DNA of 64,000 nt from Gloeothece verrucosa PCC 7822 (GTDB taxonomy: Bacteria > Cyanobacteriota > Cyanobacteriia > Cyanobacteriales > Microcystaceae), in contig NC_014501.1 of the NCBI RefSeq assembly GCF_000147335.1, positions 4,952,501-5,016,500 of the forward strand, read 5' to 3'. The notes beneath the pieces are model-generated. The model ran no database searches. It was not told the DNA's origin and worked only from the letters and a program-made list of their open reading frames with translations. Shown here piece by piece: positions 41,193-60,345 of this stretch. A program made the position numbers and the translations under genes. Numbering within the stretch: position 1 is the first letter of the stretch; every line of letters begins with the position of its first letter.

Positions 41193-41266
41193 GGGCTTGT
41201 AGCTTAGCGGATTAGAGCGTGTGGCTACGGACCACAAGGTCGGGGGTTCGATCCCCTCCAAGCCCG
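41193..41266 (+). tRNA. tRNA-Arg (anticodon ACG)
   Basis: 74 nt. Acceptor GGGCTTG pairs with CAAGCCC, discriminator G. The anticodon stem TGTGG/CCACA encloses loop CTACGGA (ACG), and the T-arm GGGGG-TTCGATC-CCCTC has one G-U. CCA is not encoded. Its 3' end is the integration site of the element to the right. Confidence 0.95.
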
Positions 41267-41283
41267 CTTAAGAAATCCTGTAA
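41255..41283. mobile_element. attL: tRNA-Arg 3' end
   Basis: CCTCCAAGCCCGCTTAAGAA followed by ATCCTGTAA recurs at 60318 with one substitution and one single-base gap. It covers the T-arm/acceptor 3' strand of the tRNA, the usual crossover region for tRNA-targeting tyrosine integrases. Confidence 0.85.
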
Positions 41284-41312
41284 GCTTTACTAAATAAGAG
41301 TTTACAGGATTT
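41273..41312 (+). terminator. Terminator after tRNA-Arg
   Basis: AAATCCTGTAA at 41273-41283 is exactly complementary to TTACAGGATTT at 41302-41312, followed by CTCTTTTATTT. The equivalent hairpin recurs beside attR. Confidence 0.8.
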
Positions 41313-41324
41313 CTCTTTTATTTA

Positions 41325-41342
41325 TTCTAGTAAATTTCTAGT
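41325..41342. promoter_or_regulatory. Candidate integrase arm-type repeats near attL
   Basis: TTCTAGTAAATTTCTAGT matches the sequence at 60235-60252 just before the integrase gene. A further TTCTAGTAATTT occurs at about 41402. Tandem TCTAGTAAATT units at both ends suit arm-type binding sites of a tyrosine integrase. Confidence 0.6.
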
Positions 41343-41403
41343 GATTTAATCCTCATTAGGTTGAATCATTAGAAATTTATATCTTTAATCCTCTATTAAA
41401 ATT

Positions 41404-42549
41404 CTAGTAATTTACAAATCGGGCTTGAACTTTGGCGATCGCTTCCCCGATAGAAATAATTCCGTCTCGGTTAACGTCTAATCCTGAATTTTGGTTGTAA
41501 GCTATGCCGGGTCTAGTGAACAGGCCGTAGTTAAGGGTTTTCCCTATGGCTGCCGGCCAAAGCACAGCCATATAGAGATCGCTTAAAGATTTCCTGCTGG
41601 TGTCAGCCCCCAATTGAGCCAGAAAATATTTTTCTACCCAATCGAGTTGACCGATGGCGGTCATTTTTGCTAGAGCCTCGGTTGAGGTTCCGAGCGAGGC
41701 TGCTGTTTGGGGCATGAATTGGATAAGTCCAACAGCACCGGAGCCGGCTTGATTCTTGACGGCGCTCGAAAATGAGCCGCCACTCTCAAAGCTCATGATC
41801 GCCATTAAATCCGATGGGTCACAGTTGATGTTATTGGCTATTAGCCTCACTCGGTTTTTAAATTGCTTTGAGCAATTCTCATCCCCAATCACCCGTTTAA
41901 GTGGCGCATAAGGTTTGATTAAGTGTGCCCAAGTCGAAAGATTACCGTTATCAGCTTGGGTGTAAATCAATTGCTCTGAGTATTTAACAAATTTACCCGC
42001 CGTTGGGCTGTTGTCGTAACCAGGGTTTTTAAATCGTCCATAGGGGTCGTGGCAAATAAATAAACAAGTTGGTTCTTCGAAAAACAATAAAACAATGACA
42101 TGACCCGAAGCCGTGAAACTATTCTGACTACTAAAAATAACTGGAAAGCCTTTTTTTAAATGCTCAAAAACATCAGCCCATTTATGCTCGGTTGACCAAT
42201 TGTCCTCAATCTCATACTCATGTAAGAGTTTTTTAATATCTAGATGGGAAAATCTATCAAGCCCCCTTTTTTGACATTCCAGATATAAGCTATCTGGGGA
42301 AACAGTTTTACCAAAATGTCCTAAAGATATTGCCACAGAAGTCAATGCACAACTTCCGTAGGAATCAATTTCATTGTCTAGCTGATAGAAATAAGGATAG
42401 TTTTTGTAGTTAAATTCTGTTGTCTGGTTAACTACGACTGGCTTTTTACTTTCAGGCTTAATTTTGGGTTTAAGGCTATTAAAAGCCAAGCTTAGGGAGC
42501 TTCCCAGGATAAAAAAACCGGCATCCCGTCGTCGAATTTTTTTAAGCAT
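41404..42549 (-). CDS. C39-like peptidase plus lytic transglycosylase (cassette endolysin)
   Basis: 381 aa. A basic start with a hydrophobic segment (RRRDAGFFILGSSLSLAF) suggests export. A C39-like papain-fold domain (about 50-190) has Cys in YGSCALTSVAIS, His in ASGHVIVLL and Asp in CHDPYG. An SLT/GEWL domain (about 235-330) has the catalytic Glu in MAIMSFESGGSF and GLIQFMPQTAASLG. The end has an EF-hand/dockerin-like DVNRDGIISIGEAIAK. It would cut both peptide and glycan bonds of the wall. It takes the terminal slot that the GH19-like enzyme fills in the other cassette. Confidence 0.85.
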   Translation of the reverse strand: MLKKIRRRDAGFFILGSSLSLAFNSLKPKIKPESKKPVVVNQTTEFNYKNYPYFYQLDNEIDSYGSCALTSVAISLGHFGKTVSPDSLYLECQKRGLDRFSHLDIKKLLHEYEIEDNWSTEHKWADVFEHLKKGFPVIFSSQNSFTASGHVIVLLFFEEPTCLFICHDPYGRFKNPGYDNSPTAGKFVKYSEQLIYTQADNGNLSTWAHLIKPYAPLKRVIGDENCSKQFKNRVRLIANNINCDPSDLMAIMSFESGGSFSSAVKNQAGSGAVGLIQFMPQTAASLGTSTEALAKMTAIGQLDWVEKYFLAQLGADTSRKSLSDLYMAVLWPAAIGKTLNYGLFTRPGIAYNQNSGLDVNRDGIISIGEAIAKVQARFVNY

Positions 42550-42617
42550 CTTTCCTCGTTAAAAATTAAGCCCGTTATTAGCGGGCTTATGATAGTTGTC
42601 AATTATTGATTAGCAAG

Positions 42618-42788
42618 TTATTGTTGTTGTTCTAAGTCTTTCTTAAAAACAACACCAGAAACCCCGTTAACGGTTACAACAAACATATTTCCGTCCGCAT
42701 CTTGAGTGCGGGGAATTAATTCTACTCCGTTAACTTTGATTTTTTGACATTCGCCATTACCAGCGCATTTTTTGCAGTTACAAGGCAT
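42618..42788 (-). CDS. 56-aa cysteine-rich small protein
   Basis: Starts MPCNCKKCAGNGECQKIKVN, with four closely spaced cysteines (3, 5, 8, 14) suggesting a zinc-binding knuckle, and ends in EQQQ. A strong ribosome-binding site TAGGAGG lies just upstream. It sits between cassette protein C and the endolysin. No homologue is seen in the left cassette, and I do not recognise the family. Confidence 0.7.
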   Translation of the reverse strand: MPCNCKKCAGNGECQKIKVNGVELIPRTQDADGNMFVVTVNGVSGVVFKKDLEQQQ

Positions 42789-42796
42789 TTTTCCTC

Positions 42797-43123
42797 CTAG
42801 TTTAAAAATCTAACTTTTACTTCATATTGGTAATTTTTGATGTAATCCATGCTTTGGAAAACTAGGATACATTCATCAACTTGAACCAATTCAATCAATC
42901 TTGATTCTTGGTGAAGTTGACGTTTTGTTAAAACGTCAAAATCAATGCCCCAGGTGATTTGACGAAACCAGCCCATCCTAATCCAATGAGGAAAAGCGGG
43001 TAATTTAATCCTGATTTTCGCATAATCACAAGGTTCTAGAATAGGAATAGTAAACTCCCATCCCTTGACATTATTAGGCGAACTACCTTGAGCTATAGTT
43101 TGCCAATTCCCCTCATTGATCAT
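42797..43123 (-). CDS. Cassette protein C (107 aa, right copy)
   Basis: Same length as the 6841-7164 product and clearly homologous: GNWQ near the start, GWEF, PHWIRMGWFRQIT, LTKRQLHQESRLIEL and a YQYEVKVRFL end. The start overlaps the stop of the preceding gene (ATGA), as its counterpart does on the left. Function unknown; a core member of the module. Confidence 0.75.
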   Translation of the reverse strand: MINEGNWQTIAQGSSPNNVKGWEFTIPILEPCDYAKIRIKLPAFPHWIRMGWFRQITWGIDFDVLTKRQLHQESRLIELVQVDECILVFQSMDYIKNYQYEVKVRFLN

Positions 43124-43497
43124 CAGGATTTATATCCTCGTTTTAAGGGTTTGTGAATACCTAATATGGTTGCTGATTGTCCATCAGCAGTAGTATAGTT
43201 ACCGCTTTTGACAGCCTCAACAGATGGTAATTTCCAAACGGGAATTAAAAATTTTAAAGAGCGTCGTTTTGCTGTCGCTCCAGTGCCAATACGAATAGAA
43301 AGATTAACTCGATTAGCAACCGGACTTTTTAGCAAATTAGCAACAGGAATTATTGGGTATTTGGCTTTCTCTTCCTCTGTGGCCAGAGTAACTCCCGTGA
43401 TTCCAGGGGATAAAGATCCGTTGTAATGGTTTTCGGGAGCTTGGAAATAATAATCCCTGTTATCTTGGGTCAATTTCCAAATAACAAATTTAGCCAT
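43123..43497 (-). CDS. Small basic cassette protein B2 (124 aa)
   Basis: Tandem paralogue of the next gene; both share KYPIIPVANLLKSPVANRVN then LSIRIGxGATAKRRSLKF with identical residues over about 35 positions. Early strand FVIWKLTQDNRDYYFQAPENHY and a basic end (PLKRGYKS). Homologous also to 6470-6844. Probably a multimeric structural protein; that role is inferred. Confidence 0.72.
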   Translation of the reverse strand: MAKFVIWKLTQDNRDYYFQAPENHYNGSLSPGITGVTLATEEEKAKYPIIPVANLLKSPVANRVNLSIRIGTGATAKRRSLKFLIPVWKLPSVEAVKSGNYTTADGQSATILGIHKPLKRGYKS

Positions 43498-43502
43498 TGT
43501 TA

Positions 43503-43880
43503 CTAGGAGACGTAACGCCGTCTTAGCGGTTCGTTAGCGCCTAAAATAGTGGCAGATTCATTGCTGGCGGTTGTATAAGCACCCGATTTAATTGCTTCAG
43601 TGTCATCAACTTTACTGGCTGCGACAACAAATTTTAAGCTTCGGCGTTTTGCGGTTGCTCCTGCTCCGATTCGAATAGAAAGATTTACACGATTGGCAAC
43701 GGGACTTTTTAGCAAATTAGCAACAGGAATTATTGGATATTTTACTTTTTCTTCGTCTGATGCCAAAGCAACTCCTGTTTTAGCGGCGGTTAATTCTCCG
43801 TTGTAATGATTCTCAGGGGCCAGAAAAAAGTATTCTTTAGAATCTTCGGTCAGTTTCCAGACAACAAAAGGTTTAGTCAT
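43503..43880 (-). CDS. Small basic cassette protein B1 (125 aa)
   Basis: Paralogue of B2 separated by only five bases. Same architecture: FVVWKLTEDSKEYFFLAPEN, TGVALASDEEK, the conserved NLLKSPVANRVNLSIRIG core and a basic PLRRRYVS end. A 35-base stretch is almost identical at DNA level between B1 and B2, which suggests recent duplication or gene conversion. Confidence 0.72.
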   Translation of the reverse strand: MTKPFVVWKLTEDSKEYFFLAPENHYNGELTAAKTGVALASDEEKVKYPIIPVANLLKSPVANRVNLSIRIGAGATAKRRSLKFVVAASKVDDTEAIKSGAYTTASNESATILGANEPLRRRYVS

Positions 43881-43926
43881 TTTTCCTCAATATATGTACA
43901 AATTGATTTGATGTGATTTGAATTGA

Positions 43927-44295
43927 TTAGCCTAAAACCACGCGGCGGGGAATTCGGGCACTGATAACCTTACGCGAATTATGGCTCTTGCCTTTTGCTG
44001 CTACTAAGCCAGTAGGAACTTTGGCGACGGGCACGGTTAATTTAGAAACTTTAGATCTGCCGGTTGTCCCCTTGTGGCTAATGGCTATCGTCATCAATAA
44101 TCCACGCGCTTTCCCTTCGGCGACTGTAATAGTATCGTCACTATCTCCCGGTGTGTAATTTTCGGTTAATTTACTAATCCCAAAAGCAGAACCAACGGTA
44201 TAACCCGCACGGTCATAAACGTCTCTGAGATCAATTAAGTATTTTTGACTTCCTACAGTAAATGTATGCCCTACTATCGGGTCAGTATTAGCCAT
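43927..44295 (-). CDS. Small basic cassette protein A (122 aa, right copy)
   Basis: Counterpart of the 6046-6417 product: FTVGSQKYLIDLRDVYDRAG, TVGSAFGISKLTENY, an acidic TITVAEGKARG segment and a basic tail (SARIPRRVVLG). It is preceded by a leader with a 20-bp perfect palindrome, as on the left. Likely structural by context only. Confidence 0.72.
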   Translation of the reverse strand: MANTDPIVGHTFTVGSQKYLIDLRDVYDRAGYTVGSAFGISKLTENYTPGDSDDTITVAEGKARGLLMTIAISHKGTTGRSKVSKLTVPVAKVPTGLVAAKGKSHNSRKVISARIPRRVVLG

Positions 44296-44414
44296 AGTCT
44301 TAGGTTTGTTTCGTGAATTTGTTCAATAATTCCAGTTTACTGATGAGGTCACACCCCGCAACGCCACCCAAACCCTTAAGGGTTTGGCCTTACCGACGAC
44401 AAGCGGCTATAAAA
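44296..44414 (-). promoter_or_regulatory. Structured leader with 20-bp perfect palindrome (44368-44387)
   Basis: CCAAACCCTTAAGGGTTTGG is a perfect palindrome ending 72 bases before the protein A start. The left cassette has an unrelated palindrome 70 bases before its protein A. GC-rich flanks (CCGC/GCGG) can extend the fold. No T-tract follows, so a simple terminator is unlikely. Confidence 0.6.
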
Positions 44415-45248
44415 TTAGTCCCGAACCAGGACATTATTAAAACGATGTGTTCGATCGTGAATGATAAGCCGGTTGGTTAAACCATTAACCAAAGCCGAAG
44501 TATATTCATAGCGAACGTATCCTACAGGTCTTTTTCTGGCTTCCTTAACCCTTTCCCCGAAAATTATCTCTGTGTCGGGAACGGTTGGATAATTCTGCAT
44601 CGGTTCTTCATCTTCATGTGTTTTGAAATGTTTCCACGACGGAGTATCATTGTTACAGTGCAAAACATCTCCTATTAAATCCTTTGCATCTGATTTAGCA
44701 AACGAGTACAACTGAAAATCATAGCCATTTTCTTCATCCTTATAAGTATATAAATCTTTTCCTTTATGAAATTTATAGCCGTGATTAGCTCCAAATTTAT
44801 TATCAATCTTTTCCCCTATAGTTATTAATTTTCCTTTAGTAATAGTTTTTGAAGTTTCATTGACAAGCCTAAAGCTAACCCGCATCCTTAACGGTCTGAA
44901 GCCTTTTTCTACATCTTTAGCATCCTCTTTAAAGTGTAGGGTTATTTGAGGTTTGAATTTGATATTAGCTTGAACCTCTTCAACCGGGTAGCCGTAAATA
45001 GGTTCAATATAGTCGGAAATGAAGCCCAAATCAAGCCAAAAAAGCAATTGTTTGCTTAAGCAAATTAAAGCATTGTCTGAGTCTTTTATGGTACACGCTA
45101 CACGCAGACCCCCTCTAGCAGTAGTTATATCGGGAACCCAATCTTCTCCACCTAAATCTGAGTAGGCGCGTCTTACTCTACGGTTATGAATTTGCATTAG
45201 AGTAGATTGATGGTGTTCCCAGTCGTCAAAGTTAGGAGGTAAATTCAT
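44415..45248 (-). CDS. Cassette protein, ~270-aa family (right copy)
   Basis: 277 aa, homologous to the 5102-5905 product over the middle: ITLHFKEDAKDVEKGFRPL, FRLVNETSKTIT, GKDLYTYKDEENGYDFQLYS. The N-terminal part is unlike. The start is one base from the 908-aa stop. No signal peptide or membrane helix is seen. Unknown function. Confidence 0.72.
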   Translation of the reverse strand: MNLPPNFDDWEHHQSTLMQIHNRRVRRAYSDLGGEDWVPDITTARGGLRVACTIKDSDNALICLSKQLLFWLDLGFISDYIEPIYGYPVEEVQANIKFKPQITLHFKEDAKDVEKGFRPLRMRVSFRLVNETSKTITKGKLITIGEKIDNKFGANHGYKFHKGKDLYTYKDEENGYDFQLYSFAKSDAKDLIGDVLHCNNDTPSWKHFKTHEDEEPMQNYPTVPDTEIIFGERVKEARKRPVGYVRYEYTSALVNGLTNRLIIHDRTHRFNNVLVRD

Positions 45249-45249
45249 A

Positions 45250-47976
45250 CTAATTAGGGGAGGGTTGAACTATATCATCATCTGTAGTTGTGGGTTGTTT
45301 AGAATCAGTCTTAGCTTTATTCTCGTCGGCTTTTCGCTTGTCTTGTAAATCTTTAATATCTTTTTGTACATCCTTGACTTCAGTTGTTATTTGCTTGGCA
45401 CTTTCAACAACATTTAAGGCTGAAGAAGTGATTTGCTCTACCGATTCAGCCATTACCTGACCCGTTTGCAGAAATCGCATTATTCCGCCCAAACGCCCAA
45501 TTTTAAAGACAAACTTTTCGCTAAACCAATCTAAGCTTGATTCGATAAACAAGCCAGATTTTTTACAGGCGTTTCCAATTTTACCGCCCATCTGAGCGAT
45601 AGTTTCTAATCCTTCGGATATTCCATAAAGCATATTAGTAGCGGCATCTAATATATTGATTCCCGCTTGATAAATTCTATTTGCTAAAGCAAATTGTAAA
45701 GATAATTCGGCGTAATTTTCAGCCCCAATTACCGATTTAGCCAGCGATTCAAAAGCGTGTCCAATCGCTCCTGTAATCGTTGTAGCCGCTCCTTCTGGCG
45801 GCTTAATTCCTATCAATTGCCCTATGTTATCAATTGCACTGCCTAGGGTGAGGGCAATGTTATTTGATAACATTAAAGCATTATGGATGGTACAAGCTAA
45901 ATTAGCGGCGGCTAACGCTCTATCAACTAATCGGTGTTCCCACAATTTTTCAAATTTTCCAGTAACAAAATTAGAAAAAGTTTGAAGATACGCCCAAACA
46001 GTATTAAGTAAATTTAAAATACCTATTGTATTATTTAATATCGCGGCATTCTGTAAGGCTAATCCGCCTATTCCGGCTGTGTTGTATACGCTCGTATCAA
46101 TCCCGTTTTTCATCTGCTTTAATGGAGCGCCTAAGCAGCCTTCCGGCTTGGAGGCATTACAAACTCCTGTTTCAGCCGCTTCGGCTAATTTGGGTAAAGA
46201 GGTCTGGTTTTTAATAAGGTTGGTAGAGATGGCAATGCCTCCTATGACCGGCACTAATCCATCAATAGTTGTTCCTAATTTTTTAACTTCGTCAGTTACT
46301 TTCACATCTACTTCATTAACTTGTGTTTGTATATTAGTAACGCTAGATTCTAATGTGGCTACCTTGTTATTAGTTTGAGTTTGGGTATTACTCAAATTAG
46401 TAATAGTAGCGTCTAATATGGCTACTTTGTTATTAGTTTGAGTCAGGGTATTACTCAAATTAGTAACAGTAGTGTCTAGTGTGGCTACTTTGTTATTAGT
46501 TTGAGTTTGGGTATTACTCAAATTGGTAATAGTAGTTTCTAAACTTCCTATCTTGTTATTGGTTTGAGTTTGGGTATTACTCAAATTAGTAACAGTAGTC
46601 TCTAAACTTCCTATCTTGTTATTGGTTTGAGTTTGGGTATTACTCAAATTAGTAACAGTAGTTTCTAGGCTTCCTATCTTGTTATTAGTTTGAGAGGAAG
46701 CAATTGTTTGGTTGGACGAATAATCACTCAATTTTTGATTGAAAGTTTGGGCGTTATAAGCATAATCGCCCAGTTTTCGGTCATAATCACTCAATTTTTG
46801 ATTGAAGGTTTGGGCGTTATAAGCATAGTCGCCCAGTTTTCGGTCATAATCACTCAATTTTTGATTGAAGGTTTGGGCGTTATAAGCATAGTCGCCCAGT
46901 TTTCGGTCATAATCACTCAATTTTTGATTGAAGGTTTGGGCGTTATAAGCATAGTCGCCCAGTTTTTGGTCATAATCACTCAATTTTTGATTAAAGACGG
47001 ACAGGTCATTTTTAATCGAATCAATACCCGCTCCGCCGCCACCAGAAATGACCCTAGTCACGTTATTTTGTACAGAATTAATTACAGAACCCTGTTGACC
47101 GAGCAGAGTTCGATAATTACTGACCTGATTTTCTAAATTACCAATTGTTTGAGCCGTTCTTAGCCGCTCAATATCGGCTCGATGGGAATTTTGGATGGCT
47201 CTTTCAATATTTATCAGGTTTTGAGCTTGTAATGCTTCGACAGAAGATTTTAGTTTTTGCAGCCCACTAACATCTAAGCCACTAAGATTTTTTAACCCTT
47301 GAAGGGCTTTAGAGGCATCCGCTTGAGCTTGAAGGGCGCGAGCATAAGCCTGATTAGCCGATCTCGCTACCTCTTGAGCATACAGGTAAGCCCCATTCGC
47401 TCTAGCGACTCCTTGCACGCCCCAAACCTCAGCATTTTTATATGCCTCTATCGCTTGAGCATAAGCGAGGTTGGCTTGTTTCATCGCCTGATTAGCCTGA
47501 TATAAAGCTTTATTAGCTTGTTTGATGCTGAGGTTGGCTTTCTCAATAGCTTCATTCGCCTTCTCGGTAGCACGATTAGCAACTTTTAAGCATTCTTGAG
47601 CCAGCAGTTCCGCCGCTATAGCTCTCTTTTCGGCATTTTTAGCCTTATCAAGAGCTTCTAAAGCTTTTGATAAGGCTTGTCCGGCTTTATCCAAGGCTTG
47701 TCCAGCTAAATCAAATGCCGCTCGTGCTATTCCCAGAGCCTGAAGTGCCACTCCCCGTACGTCAGCAATTTGGCCAGTGGCTTGAGCTATCGCTGCCCAT
47801 AGCGCCCCGATTGCTGAAAAAATCCCACTGAAATCTACCCCTTCCATCGGTTGGGTGTAGTTGTTGACAATGTTAATAATCTCTTGATTACTGGGCTTAC
47901 TCGCAAGCCCACCCCTTAATTCAGCGCGTAGGGCAGCTACTTCGGCTTTAGTAGCTAAAGATTCACATGAACTCAT
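45250..47976 (-). CDS. Large cassette protein with coiled-coil stalk repeats (908 aa)
   Basis: After a short head (1-90), residues about 90-280 are Ala/Gln-rich heptads (ANEAIEKANLSIKQANKALY). At about 330-420 are four near-identical ~22-aa repeats of NQKLSDYDRKLGDYAYNAQT, and at about 430-545 six ~21-aa repeats of NNKIGSLETTVTNLSNTQTQ. The pattern resembles trimeric fibre or autotransporter stalks. The conserved C-terminal domain (about 670-870, KLWEHRLVDRALA) matches the 654-aa protein of the left cassette. A charged tail ends it. Likely an elongated structural or adhesive protein. It starts one base after the 300-aa gene. Confidence 0.75.
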   Translation of the reverse strand: MSSCESLATKAEVAALRAELRGGLASKPSNQEIINIVNNYTQPMEGVDFSGIFSAIGALWAAIAQATGQIADVRGVALQALGIARAAFDLAGQALDKAGQALSKALEALDKAKNAEKRAIAAELLAQECLKVANRATEKANEAIEKANLSIKQANKALYQANQAMKQANLAYAQAIEAYKNAEVWGVQGVARANGAYLYAQEVARSANQAYARALQAQADASKALQGLKNLSGLDVSGLQKLKSSVEALQAQNLINIERAIQNSHRADIERLRTAQTIGNLENQVSNYRTLLGQQGSVINSVQNNVTRVISGGGGAGIDSIKNDLSVFNQKLSDYDQKLGDYAYNAQTFNQKLSDYDRKLGDYAYNAQTFNQKLSDYDRKLGDYAYNAQTFNQKLSDYDRKLGDYAYNAQTFNQKLSDYSSNQTIASSQTNNKIGSLETTVTNLSNTQTQTNNKIGSLETTVTNLSNTQTQTNNKIGSLETTITNLSNTQTQTNNKVATLDTTVTNLSNTLTQTNNKVAILDATITNLSNTQTQTNNKVATLESSVTNIQTQVNEVDVKVTDEVKKLGTTIDGLVPVIGGIAISTNLIKNQTSLPKLAEAAETGVCNASKPEGCLGAPLKQMKNGIDTSVYNTAGIGGLALQNAAILNNTIGILNLLNTVWAYLQTFSNFVTGKFEKLWEHRLVDRALAAANLACTIHNALMLSNNIALTLGSAIDNIGQLIGIKPPEGAATTITGAIGHAFESLAKSVIGAENYAELSLQFALANRIYQAGINILDAATNMLYGISEGLETIAQMGGKIGNACKKSGLFIESSLDWFSEKFVFKIGRLGGIMRFLQTGQVMAESVEQITSSALNVVESAKQITTEVKDVQKDIKDLQDKRKADENKAKTDSKQPTTTDDDIVQPSPN

Positions 47977-48879
47977 TTATACAATACCTTCACAGTAAGA
48001 CTTGACTGAGTAGCCCAAATCGTTGTAGCAACAGAGGCAGCCCCCGCATAACAACTCACAGGTTCCAGGGGGGCATAGCGGCTCTTGACTGGCTTTAATC
48101 TTGGGAGCGGCGCAACTCCCAGAAACAGCAGCGACTTGAGAGCAACTAGAGGAAATTTGATTATTTTGAACAGCCCCAACGCATTTTTTTAAAATGACGG
48201 TTTTTCCGTCAACAATTTCTGAGGTTAAAAAAGCACTGGGGTTGAGGTTAACCTCTGAGTAAACAGATGTATACTCCCCCGTGAATTGACAGCTTTCGGA
48301 AATTTTCTCCACAAGGGGATTAGTTGTATTTGTCTGGTCATATATCAGCGTTTTAGAATTATAAATTTTAAGATTATATTCAATCTGAGGCGGGAAAACC
48401 TTGCCATTAAGATCAATAATTTTAAAAGCCGCCAGAGCCGATAGAGGGATATCGGTCGCTGCATAAATTAAAGAATTAGAGCCATCTTTGTGATGGAAGT
48501 AAAGAATCCTCACAGAATAATTTTGGTAATTTGGAAACGCTGAAAAGCGCGAATCATCACAACATCTATGATTCGAATAATATTCAGGCCCAAACCCTAT
48601 TCCAAAGGGGGCGCGCAGTCTGCCCATATATTTATCTACGAAGGCGAAATAAACCAAATTCGGGCAGTCAGCCCCATTAGGGGCGTAACTGAGATAAACA
48701 TCATAATATTCTCCGTCTTTGCCCTGATCTTTCGGCCTTAGAAATATCGTGTAATCAGTCGCCGGGGCTTTTTCTTGCCAGCCCGTCCCGTCATTCCAAT
48801 TAAATCTAATTTTTGGCGGGATCGGGACATCGGCTTTCACCTCCCAGATGCCCGCGCCGCTACAAAGTGTCTGGGTCAT
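47977..48879 (-). CDS. Unrecognised protein with Cys-rich C-terminus (300 aa)
   Basis: Beta-rich sequence with aromatic/Asp strands (DYTIFLRPKDQGKDGEYYDV, NYSVRILYFHHKDG). The last 50 residues contain about ten cysteines (PPGTCELLCGGCLCCYN, then SYCEG), which suggests disulfide or metal stabilisation. No clear signal peptide. Immediately upstream of the stalk protein, the place of the tandem-domain gene in the left cassette, but not evidently homologous to it. Confidence 0.65.
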   Translation of the reverse strand: MTQTLCSGAGIWEVKADVPIPPKIRFNWNDGTGWQEKAPATDYTIFLRPKDQGKDGEYYDVYLSYAPNGADCPNLVYFAFVDKYMGRLRAPFGIGFGPEYYSNHRCCDDSRFSAFPNYQNYSVRILYFHHKDGSNSLIYAATDIPLSALAAFKIIDLNGKVFPPQIEYNLKIYNSKTLIYDQTNTTNPLVEKISESCQFTGEYTSVYSEVNLNPSAFLTSEIVDGKTVILKKCVGAVQNNQISSSCSQVAAVSGSCAAPKIKASQEPLCPPGTCELLCGGCLCCYNDLGYSVKSYCEGIV

Positions 48880-48883
48880 TGCG

Positions 48884-49213
48884 CTAACTCCCTACTATGT
48901 CGTCCGGATCGAAATCGTCACTCGGGGCGGCGAGGTAAATGTTAAAGGTAACGGGAACACTGATTTGAGTTTCAGTTCCCCGCATTACAAAAGTCCTGCT
49001 ATTTTCAAAAGAAGTCGCGCTTACACCGGCAGTAGGATCGTTGATTATATCTCCTCCTAAAGTAGATTTATTTCGCTTTAGGAGCGATGCGAAAATTGAT
49101 GAAGGCTTGGTTCCGTTTAATCCTGCGCTAGTCAAATCTGATAGCTTAATGGTCAACTCTCCATTAGCTATCGTCGCGTTTGTCCCAAAAATTTGTTGAA
49201 GTGTTAGTGGCAT
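48884..49213 (-). CDS. First gene of the right cassette (109 aa, unrecognised)
   Basis: Starts MPLTLQQIFGTNATIANGEL, beta-rich, ending with an acidic SDDFDPDDIVGS. No signal peptide or membrane helix. It is followed after four bases by the 300-aa gene and is preceded by a 212-bp region dense with inverted repeats. Function unknown. Confidence 0.65.
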   Translation of the reverse strand: MPLTLQQIFGTNATIANGELTIKLSDLTSAGLNGTKPSSIFASLLKRNKSTLGGDIINDPTAGVSATSFENSRTFVMRGTETQISVPVTFNIYLAAPSDDFDPDDIVGS

Positions 49214-52997: not shown

Positions 52998-53759
52998 TTA
53001 ATAAGCGGTAAATGCTAATTTGTTGCCTGAGCCTGATACTTTGCCCTTACCCATCTTTTCTAAGTCTCCAAACCATTCTCTAATCAGGGAAGAGTCATCT
53101 GTCTTACAACTCCAGATATATTGCTTGACATCCCTTGCCCTTACGGCTCCTAGCCGCTTGGATAGTTGAATAATAAGTGCTAATTTACGTGGGAGTTCTT
53201 GTTGGTTAGGAACTAATTTTCCTTGAGTGGATTTGTTGAGTTTTTCGAGTTGATGTAAAATTAAGTCAACCGTTTTCTCATCGGGCTTGTCTATGATTAT
53301 CTCTTTGTTATGAACTGTCGTTATAGATTGGAGAATTATAGACAACATCTCTTTGGTTTTGGCTTGCTCTAGTTCAAGCCTTTCTACTCTTTCAGCGAGT
53401 CCTATAGTTTCAACTTCTGTATTAGCCCCAGGGACGCTATAAGAACCGGTGCGGCGGATACTGGGGATTACTTCATGGAAAATCCAGCGCTGAAATTTTT
53501 TAGCTACGGGCTTGTTTGACCTGAAGATGAGACGATATAGCCCCGCTTCGGTTACGGTGAGCATTGATCGAAGTCCACCAGAGGTAGGTATAGCAGCTAT
53601 ACCCTTTTCATCTGGGTCAAAATCTTGTAGAGCATCTCTGGCCGATTCAATACCTAAAACGTCACAAACGTCTTGAGCTACCCATTCCGGATTGTCTGTT
53701 GTTCCCACGAAACGGACTTGCTGTTCTTCAAATGTGAAAATTATTGTTAGATTAGACAC
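52998..53759 (-). CDS. Bro-N domain protein with element-specific C-terminal module
   Basis: 253 aa. A BRO-family N-terminal domain (about 1-105: WVAQDVCDVLGIESARDAL, the VTEAGLYRLIFRSNKPVAKK segment, FQRWIFHEVIPSIRRTG) is typical of phage antirepressor or DNA-binding proteins. A linker follows, then a 65-aa module (PRKLALIIQLSKRLGAVRAR then DVKQYIWSCK to FTAY) also found at the end of the DUF3987 protein. It probably binds element DNA and regulates early genes. Confidence 0.85.
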   Translation of the reverse strand: MSNLTIIFTFEEQQVRFVGTTDNPEWVAQDVCDVLGIESARDALQDFDPDEKGIAAIPTSGGLRSMLTVTEAGLYRLIFRSNKPVAKKFQRWIFHEVIPSIRRTGSYSVPGANTEVETIGLAERVERLELEQAKTKEMLSIILQSITTVHNKEIIIDKPDEKTVDLILHQLEKLNKSTQGKLVPNQQELPRKLALIIQLSKRLGAVRARDVKQYIWSCKTDDSSLIREWFGDLEKMGKGKVSGSGNKLAFTAY

Positions 53760-54149: not shown

Positions 54150-54449
54150 TTAGTTTTTTTCCTCTGGTTCGTCCCAAGTTTGTTCCTCCTGGTCTTTGTC
54201 CAAATACCAGTCAAGGGGTAAGTCTAGGTAATCTCTGCCAATTTGCCTAAGAAGTTCTTGAAGGCTTTGAATTTGCTTCATATTGAGCCTAAATTCTCTT
54301 TCGCCCCTACGATACTGACCTAGGGTTCTATAGTTGATCTCCAGTCGAGCAGCTAATTGTCCAGGAGTCATATCCCACAGAGCTAAAAACTCATCAAGCA
54401 TTGATTTATATTTTTTACCCCTTGACAAATTCTTTGTTTTATCGGTCAT
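54150..54449 (-). CDS. Xre-family repressor-like protein
   Basis: 99 aa from ATG at 54449, preferred because the longer frame overlaps the operator-like palindrome. The helix-turn-helix is MTPGQLAARLEINYRTLGQY (about 25-45). The C-terminus is acidic (DKDQEEQTWDEPEEKN). It lies between the leftward and rightward gene blocks, where a lysogeny-type repressor is expected. A 16-bp inverted repeat sits ten bases upstream. Confidence 0.8.
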   Translation of the reverse strand: MTDKTKNLSRGKKYKSMLDEFLALWDMTPGQLAARLEINYRTLGQYRRGEREFRLNMKQIQSLQELLRQIGRDYLDLPLDWYLDKDQEEQTWDEPEEKN

Positions 54450-54458
54450 AATAATTAT

Positions 54459-54474
54459 AACCTCATTTGAGGTT
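54459..54474. promoter_or_regulatory. Candidate repressor operator
   Basis: AACCTCATTTGAGGTT is a 7+2+7 inverted repeat ten bases upstream of the Xre gene. Its position suits autoregulation and control of the divergent rightward operon. Confidence 0.6.
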
Positions 54475-54612
54475 AATAGAGAAACAGAAAAACTGCAAGG
54501 CGATCGCGCTCTCAAACTCAATCGCCCTGCTGTTATCAACCATATACAGAAGGAGGTGTCTAACTCAAAAAGATTTAGCAGTAGTTATTTCAAGATTTAC
54601 AGGACGAGCGTC

Positions 54613-54991: not shown

Positions 54992-55066
54992 CACTCAACC
55001 AAAAAAAACGGTGGGACAAACGTCCCACCTTCACAAAAAACATTCAAATTATGAACAACATATCAC
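54983..55066 (+). repeat. 84-bp direct repeat, copy 2, with GGTGGGAC hairpin
   Basis: It carries the last residues of the 90-aa gene, the hairpin (55010-55029) and the MNNIS start of the 134-aa gene. The hairpin may act as an mRNA processing or attenuation site in front of each gene. Confidence 0.85.
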
Positions 55067-55455
55067 CTGATGAGAGCGCTTTTAACCTATCAAAGCGCGA
55101 GTATTTAGCCGCTAAATTCCTCCAAGGACTATTAAGCTCTGCCGATGCCTCTTTTTTCTGTGGCGGGAATTCTGAGCAGCTTAATCATATGTTCTTGAGC
55201 CGCGCCGTTGACTTGGCTGATGAATTTTTGGAATATTTTGAAAGAGACAAATCTTATGTCATTAACAAAAAGCCAAAATTCAACATAAGAGACAAAGTTT
55301 ATTTTGTCGAAGATAACGGCGATAAAGTCCCTAGTACAATAGCGGACACGAGCTACTCTGTTGTTTTAGGTCAATGGGAATATTTCATTTCAAGCCACAA
55401 AGAACCTTGCTATGAATATGACCTTTTACCCAGAGAGGATGGCGACAATGAGTGA
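55051..55455 (+). CDS. Hypothetical protein (134 aa)
   Basis: Starts MNNISPDESAFNLSKREYLA. The helical N-terminal half (about 10-75) precedes a beta C-terminal part with KFNIRDKVYFVEDNGDKVPS, an SH3/Tudor-like pattern. Not recognised. Its stop lies inside the start of the next gene (ATGAGTGA). Confidence 0.6.
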   Translation: MNNISPDESAFNLSKREYLAAKFLQGLLSSADASFFCGGNSEQLNHMFLSRAVDLADEFLEYFERDKSYVINKKPKFNIRDKVYFVEDNGDKVPSTIADTSYSVVLGQWEYFISSHKEPCYEYDLLPREDGDNE

Positions 55456-55660
55456 AATTAAAGTTACTAAAATTGAGATTCGCGCTCCAAAGTTCGACCA
55501 ATATGAGCTTGTAGGGCTTGAGTGGAATGGAAAGCATTACGCCGTTAAAATTGGCCAAAGATGGCTAAATTTCGAGGACGGTTCTTGGTGGTACAAAATA
55601 GCAGGAAATGACCAAAAACTGTTCCCTGAGAGCGTCTTTTATATTCCTGAGAAGTATTAA
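55448..55660 (+). CDS. Hypothetical 70-aa protein
   Basis: ATG at 55448 overlaps the preceding stop by eight bases. Short beta-rich protein with many aromatics (VGLEWNGKHYAVKIG, GSWWYKIAGND). Possibly a small SH3-like domain. Unknown function in the early operon. Confidence 0.6.
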   Translation: MSEIKVTKIEIRAPKFDQYELVGLEWNGKHYAVKIGQRWLNFEDGSWWYKIAGNDQKLFPESVFYIPEKY

Positions 55661-55753
55661 CCACAAAGCTAAAATAACTGGAACCCGTCCATTCCGAAGT
55701 TTTTTTAACCAATTTTCAGAGGCTCTCAACCCAACAAATTAAGAGAGAGAATT

Positions 55754-56005
55754 ATGACCGAAGAAACCATGATGATTCCCGTTCCAAAATTCGCCAAAGG
55801 AGACGCTGTAAGACTTGTTTACCAAGATGGAGAAAAGATTTGCTTGGGGGCGGAAGCAATAATCCATAAAACCATTTTTGACAACGATTCAAAAAAATGG
55901 TTTTACTATACAAACTGCTTCATTTCAAGTCTCCCTGAAAACTTACTCCGTCCAGCCCCAAAAGGCGATGAAACCAAATTTAAAAGGGTACTTTCAATTG
56001 ACTGA
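55754..56005 (+). CDS. Hypothetical 83-aa SH3-like protein
   Basis: FAKGDAVRLVYQDGEKICLG and the WFYYTNCFISSLPENLLRP segment resemble the small SH3/KOW-type beta modules of other proteins here (compare KFNIRDKVYF upstream and GDRVxYxG in the 562-aa protein). AGAGAGA lies upstream of the start. Function unknown. Confidence 0.6.
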   Translation: MTEETMMIPVPKFAKGDAVRLVYQDGEKICLGAEAIIHKTIFDNDSKKWFYYTNCFISSLPENLLRPAPKGDETKFKRVLSID

Positions 56006-56210
56006 CCAACAATACTGGGAAGAAAGAAAAAGATATGTCAAATTAAGCCATCAAGCCTTCGCTCTTTCCAACCAAATAGGTTTAAGCGACCAGCAGCTAA
56101 TTGACATTCTTACCCAAAAATACGGGGTAAATAAAATTGTTCAGCTAACAAACGACGAGTTAGAGGATTTTGGGAAATGGTTGATTCAACAGAAAGAATA
56201 CTGCTCTTAA
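55968..56210 (+). CDS. Hypothetical helical 80-aa protein
   Basis: ATG at 55968 inside the 3' end of the previous gene (38-base overlap). Helical sequence with LTDQQYWEERKRYVKLSHQA and LSDQQLIDILTQKYG. No domain recognised. Confidence 0.5.
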   Translation: MKPNLKGYFQLTDQQYWEERKRYVKLSHQAFALSNQIGLSDQQLIDILTQKYGVNKIVQLTNDELEDFGKWLIQQKEYCS

Positions 56211-56389
56211 ACTGTACATATATCAATACACAAAACTACCAAGGGCTGGAGTGTGCTTATTATTATCACCACCCTCAGAAGACCTTTGTTTGCTTCATCA
56301 TAGGACGAATATTTTTAAACGATTCATCCTATCAGAGCTTACAAACAAGAGTCGAAAACTACATCAATAACTCCCTTTTGAGGGAATAA
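56177..56389 (+). CDS. Hypothetical 70-aa protein
   Basis: It overlaps the previous gene by 34 bases. MVDSTERILLLNCTYINTQN and GRIFLNDSSYQSLQTRVENY suggest a small alpha/beta protein. Weak support: tight packing, and a terminator just downstream. Confidence 0.45.
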   Translation: MVDSTERILLLNCTYINTQNYQGLECAYYYHHPQKTFVCFIIGRIFLNDSSYQSLQTRVENYINNSLLRE

Positions 56390-56422: not shown

Positions 56423-56458
56423 AAAAAGGGCGACTTACCTTTATCGTCAGCCCTTTTT
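56423..56458 (+). terminator. Terminator within the early operon
   Basis: AAAAAGGGC and GCCCTTTTT form the base of a hairpin, extended by GAC/GTC with one bulge, and end in a T-run. It separates the small early genes from the DUF3987 gene. Confidence 0.8.
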
Positions 56459-56483
56459 CATCATGATCAACAGGGAATAAATT

Positions 56484-58256
56484 ATGCTAGACAAAGAAAG
56501 GTTCAATCAAATCATCCAAGGTTTAGCCGACACAGAAACCGCGAAAACTTATTACAGAGAGCTAATTTCACTAGCTAGAACCATAGGAGATGAACACCCA
56601 GACGCTGGAAAAGTCGCTGACCAAATCATGTATCTTGAGGATTTATATAAATTCAAAGATACTCATGCACAGCCTAACACAAAACCAACCGAAGAAGCGT
56701 TTAGTTACAACGAAATCAATGAGGAGGTGCGAGCGAAAATAGATGAACTTATTGATTTAGATTTCGCTCCATCTCAAGCTTTAACCGTTTGCGATTTTTT
56801 AGCCAAGTCCCTAAAGTTGCCCAACAGCAGAAATCTAGAAAGGTACTATCATTACAGGAAAGACCAACGGGAACAAGAAGACTTTAAAAGCGAGATGGAT
56901 AAAGACTTATCCGATCTATTGGGTATTAACAAATCAGACATTAACGTCTCTGATTACTTGCCGGACTGGCTAAGTCCTCCCCTTTCCCATTACTGCAAGA
57001 CTTCTAGTGTTAAACATTTGCTCGTTCTTTTAGGGCTTTTATCCGGGGTTTCTGTCTGTCATAAAGTGAAAACGCGGCTTATGGTAGATCCTTCCAAAGA
57101 CTGGAAGGAGCCGCCGTCATTATTTGTTTTAAATATCTCCCCAACGGGTCAAGGTAAATCCCCGTTTGTAAACAAGATTCTGATTGAACCCCTATCATTA
57201 ATTCACCAAGAATGGAAGGAGGCTTTTAATGATGAACAGCTTGATTATGAAATTGAACTCGAATCAATTAAGCAACTCCCCAAAGATGAACGAAAAGAAG
57301 CGTTGAAAAATCTTAAAGAGCCGCCTAGCCGAGAAAGAATTATTTTCAGTACAGACCCGACGATCATCGGGCTTAATCAGCAGTTTAACGCCTATCCTGA
57401 GCAGGGTATCCTCGCTATTTTTGATGAAGGCTCAAAGCTTTTTGCTTTTGATCGCACAGGTTCAGGTAAAAGCGATCGCGCCGATTTGCTATCTTTTTAC
57501 AATGGCGGCGGGCTTTGCGAACTGCGGCTAGAGGGAATACGAGCAAATGTCAGCAGAACTCTCTTATCAATCAATGCAGCCATTCAACCAGAAGTCCTAT
57601 TAGAGTTAATGGGGAACTGTGAGGACCGTTCAGGGCAATGGGCCAGGTTCCTTTACGCCCTTCAACCCAAAACCCGAAAATATCCCTCTAGAAATCAAGC
57701 AAAAGTGGATGTAACCAATTTGCTGGTAGAAGTTTACGAACAAATTATGAAGCTTCCTGGAGAGCTTTATCATTTGGACCCTCAAGCCGGGCAGCTATTC
57801 GACGATTACTACTATTTTGACCTCGAAGGTAAGCGTATGCGTACCAATGACTTAGGATTAGAGGCGGTTTTCGGTAAGTCCGGAGGACAAGTCGCTCGGT
57901 TGGCCCTAAACCTTCATATTCTAGAAGTTATTGCGAACCCAGGAGCCACGCCACGATTAATCAAAGCTGAGACGATCGAAAAAGCAGTGAGCCTTTACAA
58001 GATTTGCCTCAATCAGATTCGAGGCTTGTATAGTATCGCTGGAGCTTCTCAGGGGGAACTACCCCCAAAATTGGCTCTCATCATTGAGCGCTCTAAATCC
58101 GTTGGAGCGGTTACGGCGCGAGACATCAAGCAATATGTCTGGTGCTGCAAGAAAGATGACCCTTCCCAGATTAGAGAGTGGTTCATCCGCCTTGAGAAAT
58201 TAGGTAAGGGTAAAGTATCCGGTGCTGGTAATCGGAAGTCATTTACCGCTTATTAA
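56484..58256 (+). CDS. DUF3987-type replication protein of the element
   Basis: 590 aa. A helical N-terminal part (1-150) precedes a P-loop-type domain (about 175-440): NISPTGQGKSPFVNKILIEP (Walker A-like), ILAIFDEGSKLFAF (Walker B-like) and the DLLSFYNGGGLCELRLEG segment, characteristic of DUF3987 primase/helicase-like proteins of phages and plasmids. The last 68 residues (PPKLALIIERSKSVGAVTAR then DIKQYVWCCK to FTAY) match the C-terminus of the Bro-N protein. Likely initiates or unwinds element DNA during replication. Confidence 0.8.
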   Translation: MLDKERFNQIIQGLADTETAKTYYRELISLARTIGDEHPDAGKVADQIMYLEDLYKFKDTHAQPNTKPTEEAFSYNEINEEVRAKIDELIDLDFAPSQALTVCDFLAKSLKLPNSRNLERYYHYRKDQREQEDFKSEMDKDLSDLLGINKSDINVSDYLPDWLSPPLSHYCKTSSVKHLLVLLGLLSGVSVCHKVKTRLMVDPSKDWKEPPSLFVLNISPTGQGKSPFVNKILIEPLSLIHQEWKEAFNDEQLDYEIELESIKQLPKDERKEALKNLKEPPSRERIIFSTDPTIIGLNQQFNAYPEQGILAIFDEGSKLFAFDRTGSGKSDRADLLSFYNGGGLCELRLEGIRANVSRTLLSINAAIQPEVLLELMGNCEDRSGQWARFLYALQPKTRKYPSRNQAKVDVTNLLVEVYEQIMKLPGELYHLDPQAGQLFDDYYYFDLEGKRMRTNDLGLEAVFGKSGGQVARLALNLHILEVIANPGATPRLIKAETIEKAVSLYKICLNQIRGLYSIAGASQGELPPKLALIIERSKSVGAVTARDIKQYVWCCKKDDPSQIREWFIRLEKLGKGKVSGAGNRKSFTAY

Positions 58257-58595
58257 TAAGAGGAATTGTAACACCCCTCAAAAAAAACAGTACAAAAGCT
58301 CTGCTCTACGCCTCTACAGTTTTTTTAAGCGCACTCAAAAGCTTATCTAGCATAGCTTTGAATGCGCTACATTTTTCTCTACGTCTTATCTACTTCTCTA
58401 CACATACTATCTGAGTCCCTGATAACGTAAGTTTTTATTAAGCTAATTTCTCAGATAACTGCTACTTTTATGAGAAAAAACTTTACACAACTAAGCATTT
58501 TGTAGTACATTAAAATCTTGTAACACGATTACAAGCCCAATAAAACAGCGTCTTTATTAACATTTAGGTAGTGATTATATATAACATTAACTGAA
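58179..58595. repeat. 417-bp tandem duplication, unit 1
   Basis: It carries the true last 25 codons of the DUF3987 gene, the intergenic spacer with a hairpin (AGCGCACTCAAAAGCT/AGCTTTGAATGCGCT) and a decayed copy of the integrase 3' end. It matches unit 2 at a constant offset of 417 bases with scattered substitutions. Confidence 0.9.
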
Positions 58596-59011
58596 TGGTT
58601 CATGCGCCCCGAGAAATTAGGTAAAGGTAAAATACCCAGTGCTGGTAATCGGAAGTCATTTACCGCTTATTAATAAGAGGAATTGTAACACCCCTCAAAA
58701 AAAACAGTACAAAAGCTCTGCTCTACGCCTCTACAGTTTTTTTAAGCGCACTCAAAAGCTTATCTAGCATAGCTTTGAATGCGCTACATTTTTCTCTACG
58801 CCTTATCTACTTCTCTACACATACTATCTGAGTCCCTGATAACGTAAGTTTTTATTAAGCTGATTTCTCAGATAACTGCTACTTTTATGAGAAAAAATTT
58901 TACATAACTAAGCATCTTGTAGCACATCAAAATCTTGTAACACGATTACAAGTTCAATAAAACAGCATCTTTATTAACACCTAGGTAGTGATTGTATATA
59001 ACGTCAACCGA
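58596..59011. repeat. 417-bp tandem duplication, unit 2
   Basis: It starts with a decayed copy of the DUF3987 C-terminal codons (GKGKIPSAGNRKSFTAY-like), repeats the spacer and hairpin, and ends with the functional last 21 codons of the integrase. Together the two units account for the gene-free 58257-58945. Confidence 0.9.
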
Positions 59012-60229
59012 GTTACCGCAACTGTCAGCCAGCAACTTTAGGTCCACTCCTGATTGAGCCTGCAAAGTAATGAAAGTATGCCGCGTTGACGAAGGCTTTA
59101 AATATTGAGAGATTTTCCCCTCATCAGCTAACCGAGTAACAACGCCAGGATAGTATCTAGTCTCGCCTAAATCTTTATCGTCTCGCTTTCCTTTGTTTTT
59201 GCCGTTCCAAGCTTCATTAAGCATTAACCGGTCAAAATGTTTGCCTTTTGGAGTTGTAAACACAAAGCCTTTTGATGCTGTAGTCTGACTTTGAGCTTCA
59301 ACCTTTTCCAGTAAAAATAACAGTTTAGAATAACCTTTTGTTTTAAAAATCCTAGTAGTATCTGTCTTGGTTGTTTTTAGTAGCCGAGATTCTGTACTCC
59401 AGCTTTCGTCAAAAACAATCCAGTCTTTCTTAATATCATTCCATTTCAAGGCAAAGGCTTCTCCTAGACGGCAGCCCGTCAGAAATAAAAATTCAACTAA
59501 ATCCGCTATCTGCCGCTCAAGGCTCCTGGACGAAGACCTAAAACTACTGATAATTACATCTCTTTCTTCTTTTGCAAAAGCTCTATAGTCTTCTGCTTCG
59601 GATAACTGAGATGATTTTTTAGGGGGTTTAACAATCACATCTTTAGTCTGGTTAAAGAAATTTTTACTAAGCTTCTCACGTCTAACTGCCCTATCGCCCA
59701 TGTAAACAAGGGCATTAAAAAGCTTTTTCAGATTGGGTTGATAGTTGTCGGCTCTCATCAAATCAAAAATCATGTTATTGACCATTTCTGAGCTAATTTC
59801 AGATTCTAGCCAAGGCGACAACCAATGTAAGTAAGTTCTCCTATAACGATTTTGGTAAGTCGTTTGACAAATCTGCTTGGTGGAAAGCTTCCAGCTACAA
59901 AAATCATCCCATAGTTCACCGAGGGTAGGGTTAGCGATCGCAGTGGAGAGAGAAACGATTTTAGGAGTAACCTTAATCCCTAAGTATTTTTCTAATGTGG
60001 GGTCAAATAAATTTTCCGCGTCAGGATGGTCTAAATCTGCCTGTATGCGCTGACAAATGCCTTCAAGCCATTTCCTATTGTCAGGGCTGTCACTTCGCCC
60101 TACAGCCTTATAAAACTGGGGCTTATTGTAAAATTTGCGGCTGAGACGAGAGGAGAACTGAAGTCGCAAAGATCCTTTATCAGCCTGAATCCTTATGTCT
60201 TGGGTTTTGTGAGTCTTTTGAGCCTGCAT
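58946..60229 (-). CDS. int: Tyrosine integrase of the tRNA-Arg element
   Basis: 427 aa. An N-terminal arm-binding-like part (about 1-80), a SAM-like core-binding domain (about 95-200) and a catalytic domain with Arg in FLTGCRLGEAFALKW, TRHTFITLQAQSG and tyrosine in VIYNHYLG. In the HxxR box the His is replaced (SSTRHT), and the second His position is Asn (GNS); both variants occur in cyanobacterial phage-type integrases. Adjacent to attR and transcribed inward. Candidate arm sites lie just upstream of its start. Confidence 0.88.
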   Translation of the reverse strand: MQAQKTHKTQDIRIQADKGSLRLQFSSRLSRKFYNKPQFYKAVGRSDSPDNRKWLEGICQRIQADLDHPDAENLFDPTLEKYLGIKVTPKIVSLSTAIANPTLGELWDDFCSWKLSTKQICQTTYQNRYRRTYLHWLSPWLESEISSEMVNNMIFDLMRADNYQPNLKKLFNALVYMGDRAVRREKLSKNFFNQTKDVIVKPPKKSSQLSEAEDYRAFAKEERDVIISSFRSSSRSLERQIADLVEFLFLTGCRLGEAFALKWNDIKKDWIVFDESWSTESRLLKTTKTDTTRIFKTKGYSKLLFLLEKVEAQSQTTASKGFVFTTPKGKHFDRLMLNEAWNGKNKGKRDDKDLGETRYYPGVVTRLADEGKISQYLKPSSTRHTFITLQAQSGVDLKLLADSCGNSVDVIYNHYLGVNKDAVLLNL

Positions 60230-60234
60230 ATTTT

Positions 60235-60255
60235 TTCTAGTAAATTTCTAGTAAA
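60235..60255. promoter_or_regulatory. Candidate integrase arm-type repeats near attR
   Basis: Tandem TCTAGTAAATT units six bases upstream of the integrase start, matching 41325-41342 at the other end. Binding here could also repress int. Confidence 0.6.
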
Positions 60256-60317
60256 TTATATTACTCACAACCCGAAAGCATTACCCTGAAAGCCTTGCAA
60301 GCCGTCCCGTACGAGTT

Positions 60318-60345
60318 CCTCCAAGCCCGTTTAAGAAACCTGTAA
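60318..60345. mobile_element. attR: duplicated tRNA-Arg 3' end
   Basis: CCTCCAAGCCCGTTTAAGAA then ACCTGTAA corresponds to the tRNA-Arg 3' strand and flank at 41255. The 5' part of a tRNA is missing, so this is a recombination scar and not a second tRNA gene. Confidence 0.85.

Follow-up and report, generated by a model that had tools for sequence, protein, structure and literature searches.

A 19-kb integrative element at tRNA-Arg(ACG) of Gloeothece verrucosa PCC 7822 and its candidate virion module

A stretch of 64,000 nucleotides from the cyanobacterium Gloeothece verrucosa PCC 7822 (NC_014501.1, positions 4,952,501 to 5,016,500 of the forward strand; hereafter the window, in whose coordinates positions are given unless prefixed C1, for the chromosome) holds an integrative element of 19,063 bp, the spacing between two copies of the 3' end of a tRNA-Arg(ACG) gene. 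This gene (41193-41267, + strand) is whole and is the single tRNA gene that ARAGORN finds in the window. The 12-bp core CCTCCAAGCCCG at its 3' end forms the left attachment site (attL, 41255-41266, +) and has an exact second copy at 60318-60329 (attR, +); the copy is followed by one mismatch and then by TTAAGAAA, and the local alignment extends through terminator hairpins on both sides. A 22-base att pattern, allowing up to 3 mismatches, matches two sites in the window, both of them att sites, and none in 100 shuffles. A terminator-like hairpin is predicted at each side: the one at attL (41271-41314, +; minimum free energy -24.0 kcal/mol) was presumably brought by the element, and the one at attR (60335-60373, +; -18.6 kcal/mol for the stretch folded) would be the original hairpin of the tRNA gene. 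Arm-type repeats lie close to both ends, where TCTAGTAAATT occurs three times (41326, 60236 and 60247) and nowhere else in the 64 kb, against 0.04 copies expected; the repeats comprise TTCTAGTAAWTT on the left (41325-41413, +; at 41325, at 41336 with one mismatch and at 41402) and two copies of TTCTAGTAAATT on the right (60235-60257, +). A tyrosine integrase of 427 amino acids (58946-60229, - strand; PF00589, E 1.9e-9; PHROG integrase, 1.6e-24) adjoins attR. A sequence-only reading of this DNA had proposed a complete element of about 19 kb with both att sites in tRNA-Arg(ACG), a tRNA 3' end recurring with its terminator hairpin, arm-like repeats near both ends and an integrase at attR, and all of this is borne out: integration into tRNA-Arg(ACG) is close to certain, and what has integrated is a genuine and complete element whose general kind is known.

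Between these borders the main reading frames are open. To the left of the integrase lie a DUF3987 primase/helicase-like replication protein (56484-58256, +; 5.7e-40) and the small genes p134, p82, p83, p110 and p70, taken from the open reading frames (55051-56389, +). On the opposite strand follow p129, a candidate helix-turn-helix (HTH)-like regulator common to the sister elements described below (54150-54539, -; weak hidden Markov model matches only, E 0.055), a Bro-N anti-repressor (52998-53759, -; PF02498, 1.1e-18), the repeat-rich p502, which by sequence comparison is likewise common to sister elements (51447-52955, -), and a UvrD/Rep-type helicase (49574-51442, -; PHROG phage DNA helicase, 1.1e-79). 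The helicase was also considered as GajB, but the matches were taken to reflect general helicase similarity, and the phage-helicase PHROG is far stronger. The helicase and the DUF3987 protein are the P-loop proteins of the element; two loose matches to the motif, in p300 and in the C39/SLT protein, were read as chance.

The late module occupies the remaining part and is read leftward. Its first gene, p109 (48884-49213, -), belongs by comparison of stretches to the same family as proteins of 110-120 amino acids elsewhere. It is followed by p300 (47977-48879, -), which has a Cys-rich tail and differs more than any other module gene between two sister elements; by p908 (45250-47976, -), in which a conserved C-terminal domain follows a variable middle part, coiled-coil here and collagen-like in a relative; and by p277 (44415-45248, -), the marker of the module, for which family and structure searches gave no known family or fold match. 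Among the small proteins that come next, p125 (43503-43880, -) is conserved, p124 (43123-43497, -) is its paralogue, and p122 (43927-44295, -) is a distant homologue (hhalign probability 91); p108 (42797-43123, -) is conserved and of the same family as proteins of 150-160 amino acids elsewhere, and p56 (42618-42788, -) is small and Cys-rich, with no Pfam or PHROG match. The module terminates in a C39-like peptidase of 381 amino acids with an SLT transglycosylase domain, a lysin candidate (41404-42549, -; PF13529, 7.5e-21; PF01464, 1.9e-6; PHROG baseplate hub C-terminus, 7e-42; PHROG endolysin, 3e-13). For the small module proteins, none of the Pfam and PHROG matches goes below E 0.09, and p277 could not be assigned to a family of Pfam, PHROG or NCBIfam (best E above 0.03). 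Readings of p908 as a tail fibre or SMC-like protein were given zero weight, the matches sitting on coiled-coil or collagen-like repeats. The earlier statement that the element has no recognisable virion genes holds for Pfam and PHROGs and is refined by the comparisons that follow, which make 41404-49213 a conserved, syntenic cassette and a candidate virion module.

This cassette consists of p109, p300, p908, p277, either p122/p125 or a 190-amino-acid protein, p108 and sometimes a peptidoglycan hydrolase. Relatives of p277 are present in 26 of 386 cyanobacterial genomes sampled across the phylum, the own genome included; this is a lower bound, as only 6 of the 10 own-genome candidates were scored and one p277 copy inside the window was missed. 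A scan of a genome collection with a short degenerate pattern found p277 at 15 loci, all cyanobacterial. In a comparison of 38 stretches, most of them chosen for holding p277, relatives of p908 occur in 31, and p908 precedes p277 on the same strand wherever both are present. By hhalign, the 190-amino-acid family is unlinked to p122 or p125, and p300 is unlinked to a similarly placed family of about 200 amino acids. Among 72,556 plasmids, p277 is found on two, both from one strain: the module lies on the circular plasmids pHT582-1 and pHT582-2, which carry ParA/ParB-type genes. The second of these (CP019638, 15.6 kb) combines p277 and p908 with a 1664-amino-acid protein that has a match to the MACPF (perforin-like) domain. 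The module is not named in the literature searched, which is the sole basis for the term "undescribed".

A mini tyrosine recombinase of about 190 amino acids, usually divergent and upstream of the module, is encoded in 16 of the 38 stretches; the gene is missing from the window element. Palindromic sites adjoin it at 10 of the 16 loci (2.0 expected; three of the ten are near-copies in one genome), with at least two sites at 7 loci, and they look like a putative resolution or inversion site. A role of this recombinase in promoter inversion was considered and rejected: the palindromes are above chance, yet the window element lacks the gene.

The own chromosome contains sister elements at other tRNA genes. 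In the sister at tRNA-Arg(TCT) (C1:4511012-4533585), a 15-bp core repeat marks the borders and the integrase is 72% identical to that of the window; the module, in opposite orientation to the integrase, shares 97% DNA identity with window positions 41411-46695 (5.3 kb), and a VapE-like/DUF3854 protein takes the place of DUF3987 as replication gene. CTAGTA occurs three times near each of its ends. Yet the window has 18 copies of this common hexamer, and the longer motif TTCTAGTAAWTT shows no enrichment in the sister (none in one stretch, 3 against 0.8 expected in another), so that good support for the arm motif is confined to the window element. Elsewhere in the own genome, at E ≤ 0.001, the tRNA-Arg(ACG) 3' end is found only as a 34-bp relic of 91% identity within this sister, and the repeat was not met without an element at an unrelated tRNA gene, a case that the sequence-only reading had named as evidence against itself. 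The relic (C1:4519462-4519495) lies at the module border of the sister and points to an earlier integration, nested or in tandem.

The sister at tRNA-Gly(TCC) (C1:4244835-4262031) is bordered by a 55-bp perfect direct repeat, and its integrase is unrelated to that of the window (24% identity to the nearest compared). Its p277 is short (146 amino acids) and a single internal stop interrupts its p908, so that the module appears damaged. In a further relative, near 1.43 Mb, the integrase is split across two frames. Beside tRNA-Lys(CTT) near 0.73 Mb (C1:730579-739007) a C39/SLT gene (65% identity) is accompanied by one with weak similarity to p908 (E 7e-4); no p277 was recognised there, and no tRNA-end repeat was found within the 20 kb examined. 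When the whole element was compared with the own genome, element copies, self-similar stretches and also matches near 0.59 and 0.93 Mb were listed. In other genomes, a query of moaC plus the tRNA gene gave matches in 57 of 58 genomes, the own included, many of them by the tRNA alone or by moaC alone, and no integrase relative was found within the examined bases of 24 stretches that come from 19 places in relatives, 5 places being represented twice.

The order of genes in the window, leaving out the integrase, is lysin-p56-p108-p277-p908-p300-p109-uvrD-p502-BroN-p129-p134-p82-p83-p110-DUF3987, and in the tRNA-Gly(TCC) element it runs from uvrD to DUF3987 and then from lysin to p109. Over these 16 positions, directed neighbour pairs agree in 16 of 16 cases when the orders are read as circles and in 14 of 15 when they are read as lines, in a hand-made list that counts "lysin" as one position though the enzymes are unrelated and that omits p122, p124, p125 and a few small frames peculiar to one element. 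The integrase/att cassette is placed between DUF3987 and the module in the window, and between p109 and uvrD in the tRNA-Gly element. The equal circular order, with the integration cassette at another junction, is good indirect evidence from anatomy for a circular free genome into which different, exchangeable integration cassettes were set, which would be the simplest reading.

The module is also found in an IS110-type carrier, of which the own chromosome has four copies. Two of them measure 13,442 bp (C1:2901495-2914936 and C1:3627563-3641004) and are 100% identical, hence the carrier has moved very recently; the third measures 12,894 bp (C1:3271393-3284286), and the fourth, of about 13,755 bp, extends from C1:4947286 to window position 8540, thus partly within the window, and is about 97% identical, in the parts compared, to the copies at 2.90 and 3.27 Mb. 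The terminal gene of the carrier encodes a DEDD-type recombinase and has its stop codon 6 bp from the carrier end; the ends bear the 8-bp subterminal inverted repeats AACTAATT/AATTAGTT. Among the four DEDD proteins scanned, three have PF01548 and two PF02371: the own-genome copy matches PF02371 only (21.5 bits, cut-off 21.3), and relatives from other genomes match PF01548 with E down to 1.8e-12. At seven loci in other genomes, DEDD genes lie about 3-6 kb from the module and may belong to one element with it.

The enzymes found next to the module differ in kind. Apart from the C39/SLT enzyme of the window, a Peptidase_M15 protein (phage endolysin PHROG, 3e-32) follows a partial module with p125- and p108-like genes at a contig edge in a relative, and an M23 peptidase adjoins the module at 1.43 Mb on the opposite strand; weaker hydrolase matches concern YkuD, below the cut-off, and GH19, at E 0.013. 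Unrelated hydrolases at one position of the module suggest the pattern of a lysis cassette.

Purifying selection acts on several module genes. In a comparison of the window element with the tRNA-Arg(TCT) sister, omega is 0.15 for the C39/SLT gene, 0.28 for p908, 0.11 for p109 and 0.23 for p300, with synonymous sites near saturation in the last; overall, it ranges from 0.07 to 0.28 for these four genes and int190. Over the aligned codons, p300 is 57% identical between the two elements, and p300 and the middle of p908 vary in the way expected of receptor-facing parts. The DNA from p277 to p56 is nearly identical between compared copies, and an identical core with divergent surroundings also occurs in two IS110-type copies and in two copies in another genome, which argues that the core was exchanged or homogenised between elements. 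In a tree of p277, the DEDD label changes four times, two of these changes being forced by well-supported branches; mobility types do not cluster beyond shuffles (for DEDD, 77 of 500 were as low; for all three groups, 51 of 200), with the label "full Y-int" including loci without a demonstrated tRNA target. The tree fits repeated exchange, which is not significant against the shuffles.

A decayed ordinary tailed prophage could account for the phage-type helicase, the Bro-N protein and a tail-lysozyme-like C-terminus. However, the main frames are open, omega is well below 1 in the testable genes, and this set of genes is found repeatedly across the phylum; this explanation, which we regard as highly improbable, was dropped because the scanned proteins include no head or packaging gene.

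Our preferred reading, held with about even confidence, is that these roughly 19 kb form an integrative element that is temperate and virus-like and whose late module, for virion and lysis, is undescribed. This reading draws on the att and arm repeats above chance, the integrase, the sister elements, the synteny of the module, its varied peptidoglycan hydrolases, the low omega values, the identical 13,442-bp copies and the phage-type helicase together with Bro-N. In such an element, Int would join the 12-bp core at the tRNA-Arg(ACG) 3' end to the matching core of a circular form, and insertion would restore the tRNA, with the element supplying its own terminator hairpin. The circle might be replicated by the DUF3987 primase/helicase and the UvrD helicase under the control of a Bro-N/HTH switch. 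The late leftward operon (49.2 to 41.4 kb) would then make p109, p300, p908, p277, p122/p125 and p108. These are read as components of a particle whose type is undescribed; p300 and the middle of p908 would be its variable, receptor-facing parts, and the C39/SLT enzyme could serve exit or entry. A virus-like particle is the most likely product of the late module; excision, the order in which the genes are expressed and the building of a DNA-carrying particle by the cassette are steps that we infer. A more specific proposal is tentative: cyanobacteria may host a lineage of small circular viruses, undescribed and with no packaging motor that can be recognised, whose virion/lysis cassette is the module. 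The module would be common in cyanobacterial genomes and unseen by virus finders, and would have repeatedly swapped its integration system among tRNA-gene tyrosine integrases, IS110-type (probably RNA-guided) recombinases and plasmid partitioning.

Several results weigh against a virus-like element. No empty site was found in relatives: the genes of the right flank were not found near the tRNA gene in five relative loci of about 10 kb, the 58 genomes searched including none of the same genus. Relatives of p277 are absent from 50,697 phage records, where virus genomes would be expected, and pattern scans of IMG/VR gave no relative of p277 or p908, an absence that, as in the genome-collection scan, is valid at the sensitivity of short degenerate patterns only. 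The predicted structure of p277 (predicted local distance difference test (pLDDT) 80, predicted template modelling score (pTM) 0.59) was compared with PDB and BFVD and by means of VIA-align, with best E of 0.025 and 0.0034 and a best Z of 5.3 over 50 residues, and that of the 190-amino-acid protein (pLDDT 74, pTM 0.61) gave a best PDB E of 1.1 and a best Z of 3.4, both read as no match; for these predicted models, the absence of a fold match does not demonstrate a new fold. Beside several other modules no hydrolase was recognised, the next genes being judged by eye and only part of them scanned, and the DNA from p277 to p56 is too similar between copies for a selection test. Moreover, Pfam and PHROGs reveal no terminase, portal, known capsid, packaging ATPase or Zot in the scanned proteins, and the 13.4-kb carrier has no P-loop motif in frames of at least 50 amino acids. 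An HK97-fold capsid is indicated neither by a family match nor by the two predicted folds (p277 and the 190-amino-acid protein), the same two folded module proteins do not match a double jelly-roll capsid, and an FtsK/HerA-type packaging ATPase was not found by Pfam/PHROG scans or the P-loop motif search. With none of the known head and packaging genes recognised and no P-loop motif in that carrier, a motor-driven virion of known type is unlikely, which leaves three readings: a virion without a motor, packaging by a helper, or a DNA-free structure.

Helper packaging would make the element a phage satellite, which excises and replicates by itself, is packaged by a helper phage and uses the module for adsorption, remodelling and lysis. 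The lack of a recognised motor in the element is in line with this, its size and tRNA integration are compatible with it, and the tRNA-Arg(TCT) sister has a VapE-like primase, a type of protein linked to satellites. No satellite-type packaging or capsid-remodelling gene, such as those of phage-inducible chromosomal islands (PICI), was recognised in the scanned proteins, however, and the module is large, syntenic and, in the window element, equipped with its own lysin; a helper was not identified, and no search for one was made. On balance, a satellite appears rather unlikely.

The element might instead be plasmid-like or integrative, with the module making a DNA-free structure (bacteriocin-like, or an adhesion or contact device) and transfer achieved by other means. 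The presence of the module on the two ParAB plasmids, one of them with the MACPF-domain protein, speaks for this, as do the missing motor gene and the absence of the module from the virus collections searched. Endolysin-type enzymes accompany some modules, though, and the module is carried by mobile DNA of several kinds and passes from one element to another. A DNA-free structure is unlikely, if still worth considering. By Pfam, no relaxase or type IV secretion gene, as would mark an integrative conjugative or mobilisable element (ICE or IME), was found among the scanned proteins. Another possibility, for which we see only a slim chance, is a vesicle- or membrane-type virus, pleolipovirus-like in its working, that needs no packaging motor. 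It would suit the missing motor and the small genome with an integrase, and 18 of 33 members of the p908 family have a hydrophobic, membrane-like segment; at the same cut-off, however, the segment is missing from the p908 of the window and from all 32 p277 proteins, and no homology to any such virus was found.

Taken as a virus-like integrative element, the window element can be compared with several known systems. It shares with temperate phages and genomic islands in tRNA 3' ends the tRNA-end direct repeat, the arm repeats, an integrase at one border and a tRNA gene left whole, and differs from them in that no known virion, packaging or conjugation genes were recognised and the late module consists of unknown families. 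Tycheposons are described as tRNA-linked tyrosine-recombinase elements of Prochlorococcus and others, large (4-200 kb) and cargo-carrying (PMC10872708). The likeness is one of border anatomy, namely the tRNA border and the tyrosine recombinase, whereas the window element has a conserved virus-like module instead of any recognised metabolic cargo (PMC10872708). Filamentous phages with an IS110-type DEDD transposase, such as Acinetobacter Af1 and the Neisseria PivNM phages, resemble the 13.4-kb sisters in being small, DEDD-moved and in some cases multi-copy, but in the elements studied here no Zot or other inovirus gene was recognised, and the window element uses a tyrosine integrase (PMC11209303). 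IS1111 elements are described as having subterminal inverted repeats and a long right end (PMC11208160). The 13.4-kb-type sisters share with IS110/IS1111 the DEDD-type gene and the subterminal inverted repeat, and differ in their 12.9-13.8 kb with a virus-like module and in a DEDD stop 6 bp from the end, in contrast to the long right end of IS1111 (PMC11208160). The DUF3987 replication protein family is common to the window element and some cyanobacterial plasmids, and pHT582-1 and pHT582-2 share the module with it but differ as circular plasmids with ParA/ParB-type genes. Heterocyst excision elements (PMC4874684) were considered for comparison as well and set aside.

If the module is indeed a virion set, a whole lineage of cyanobacterial viruses would have gone unnoticed, its structural genes being absent from the reference libraries searched, and p277 alone would make that lineage findable. 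Even otherwise, the precise borders, the circular permutation, the integrase swap and the IS110-type relatives, with identical copies in one genome, make excision, transfer and cassette exchange directly testable.

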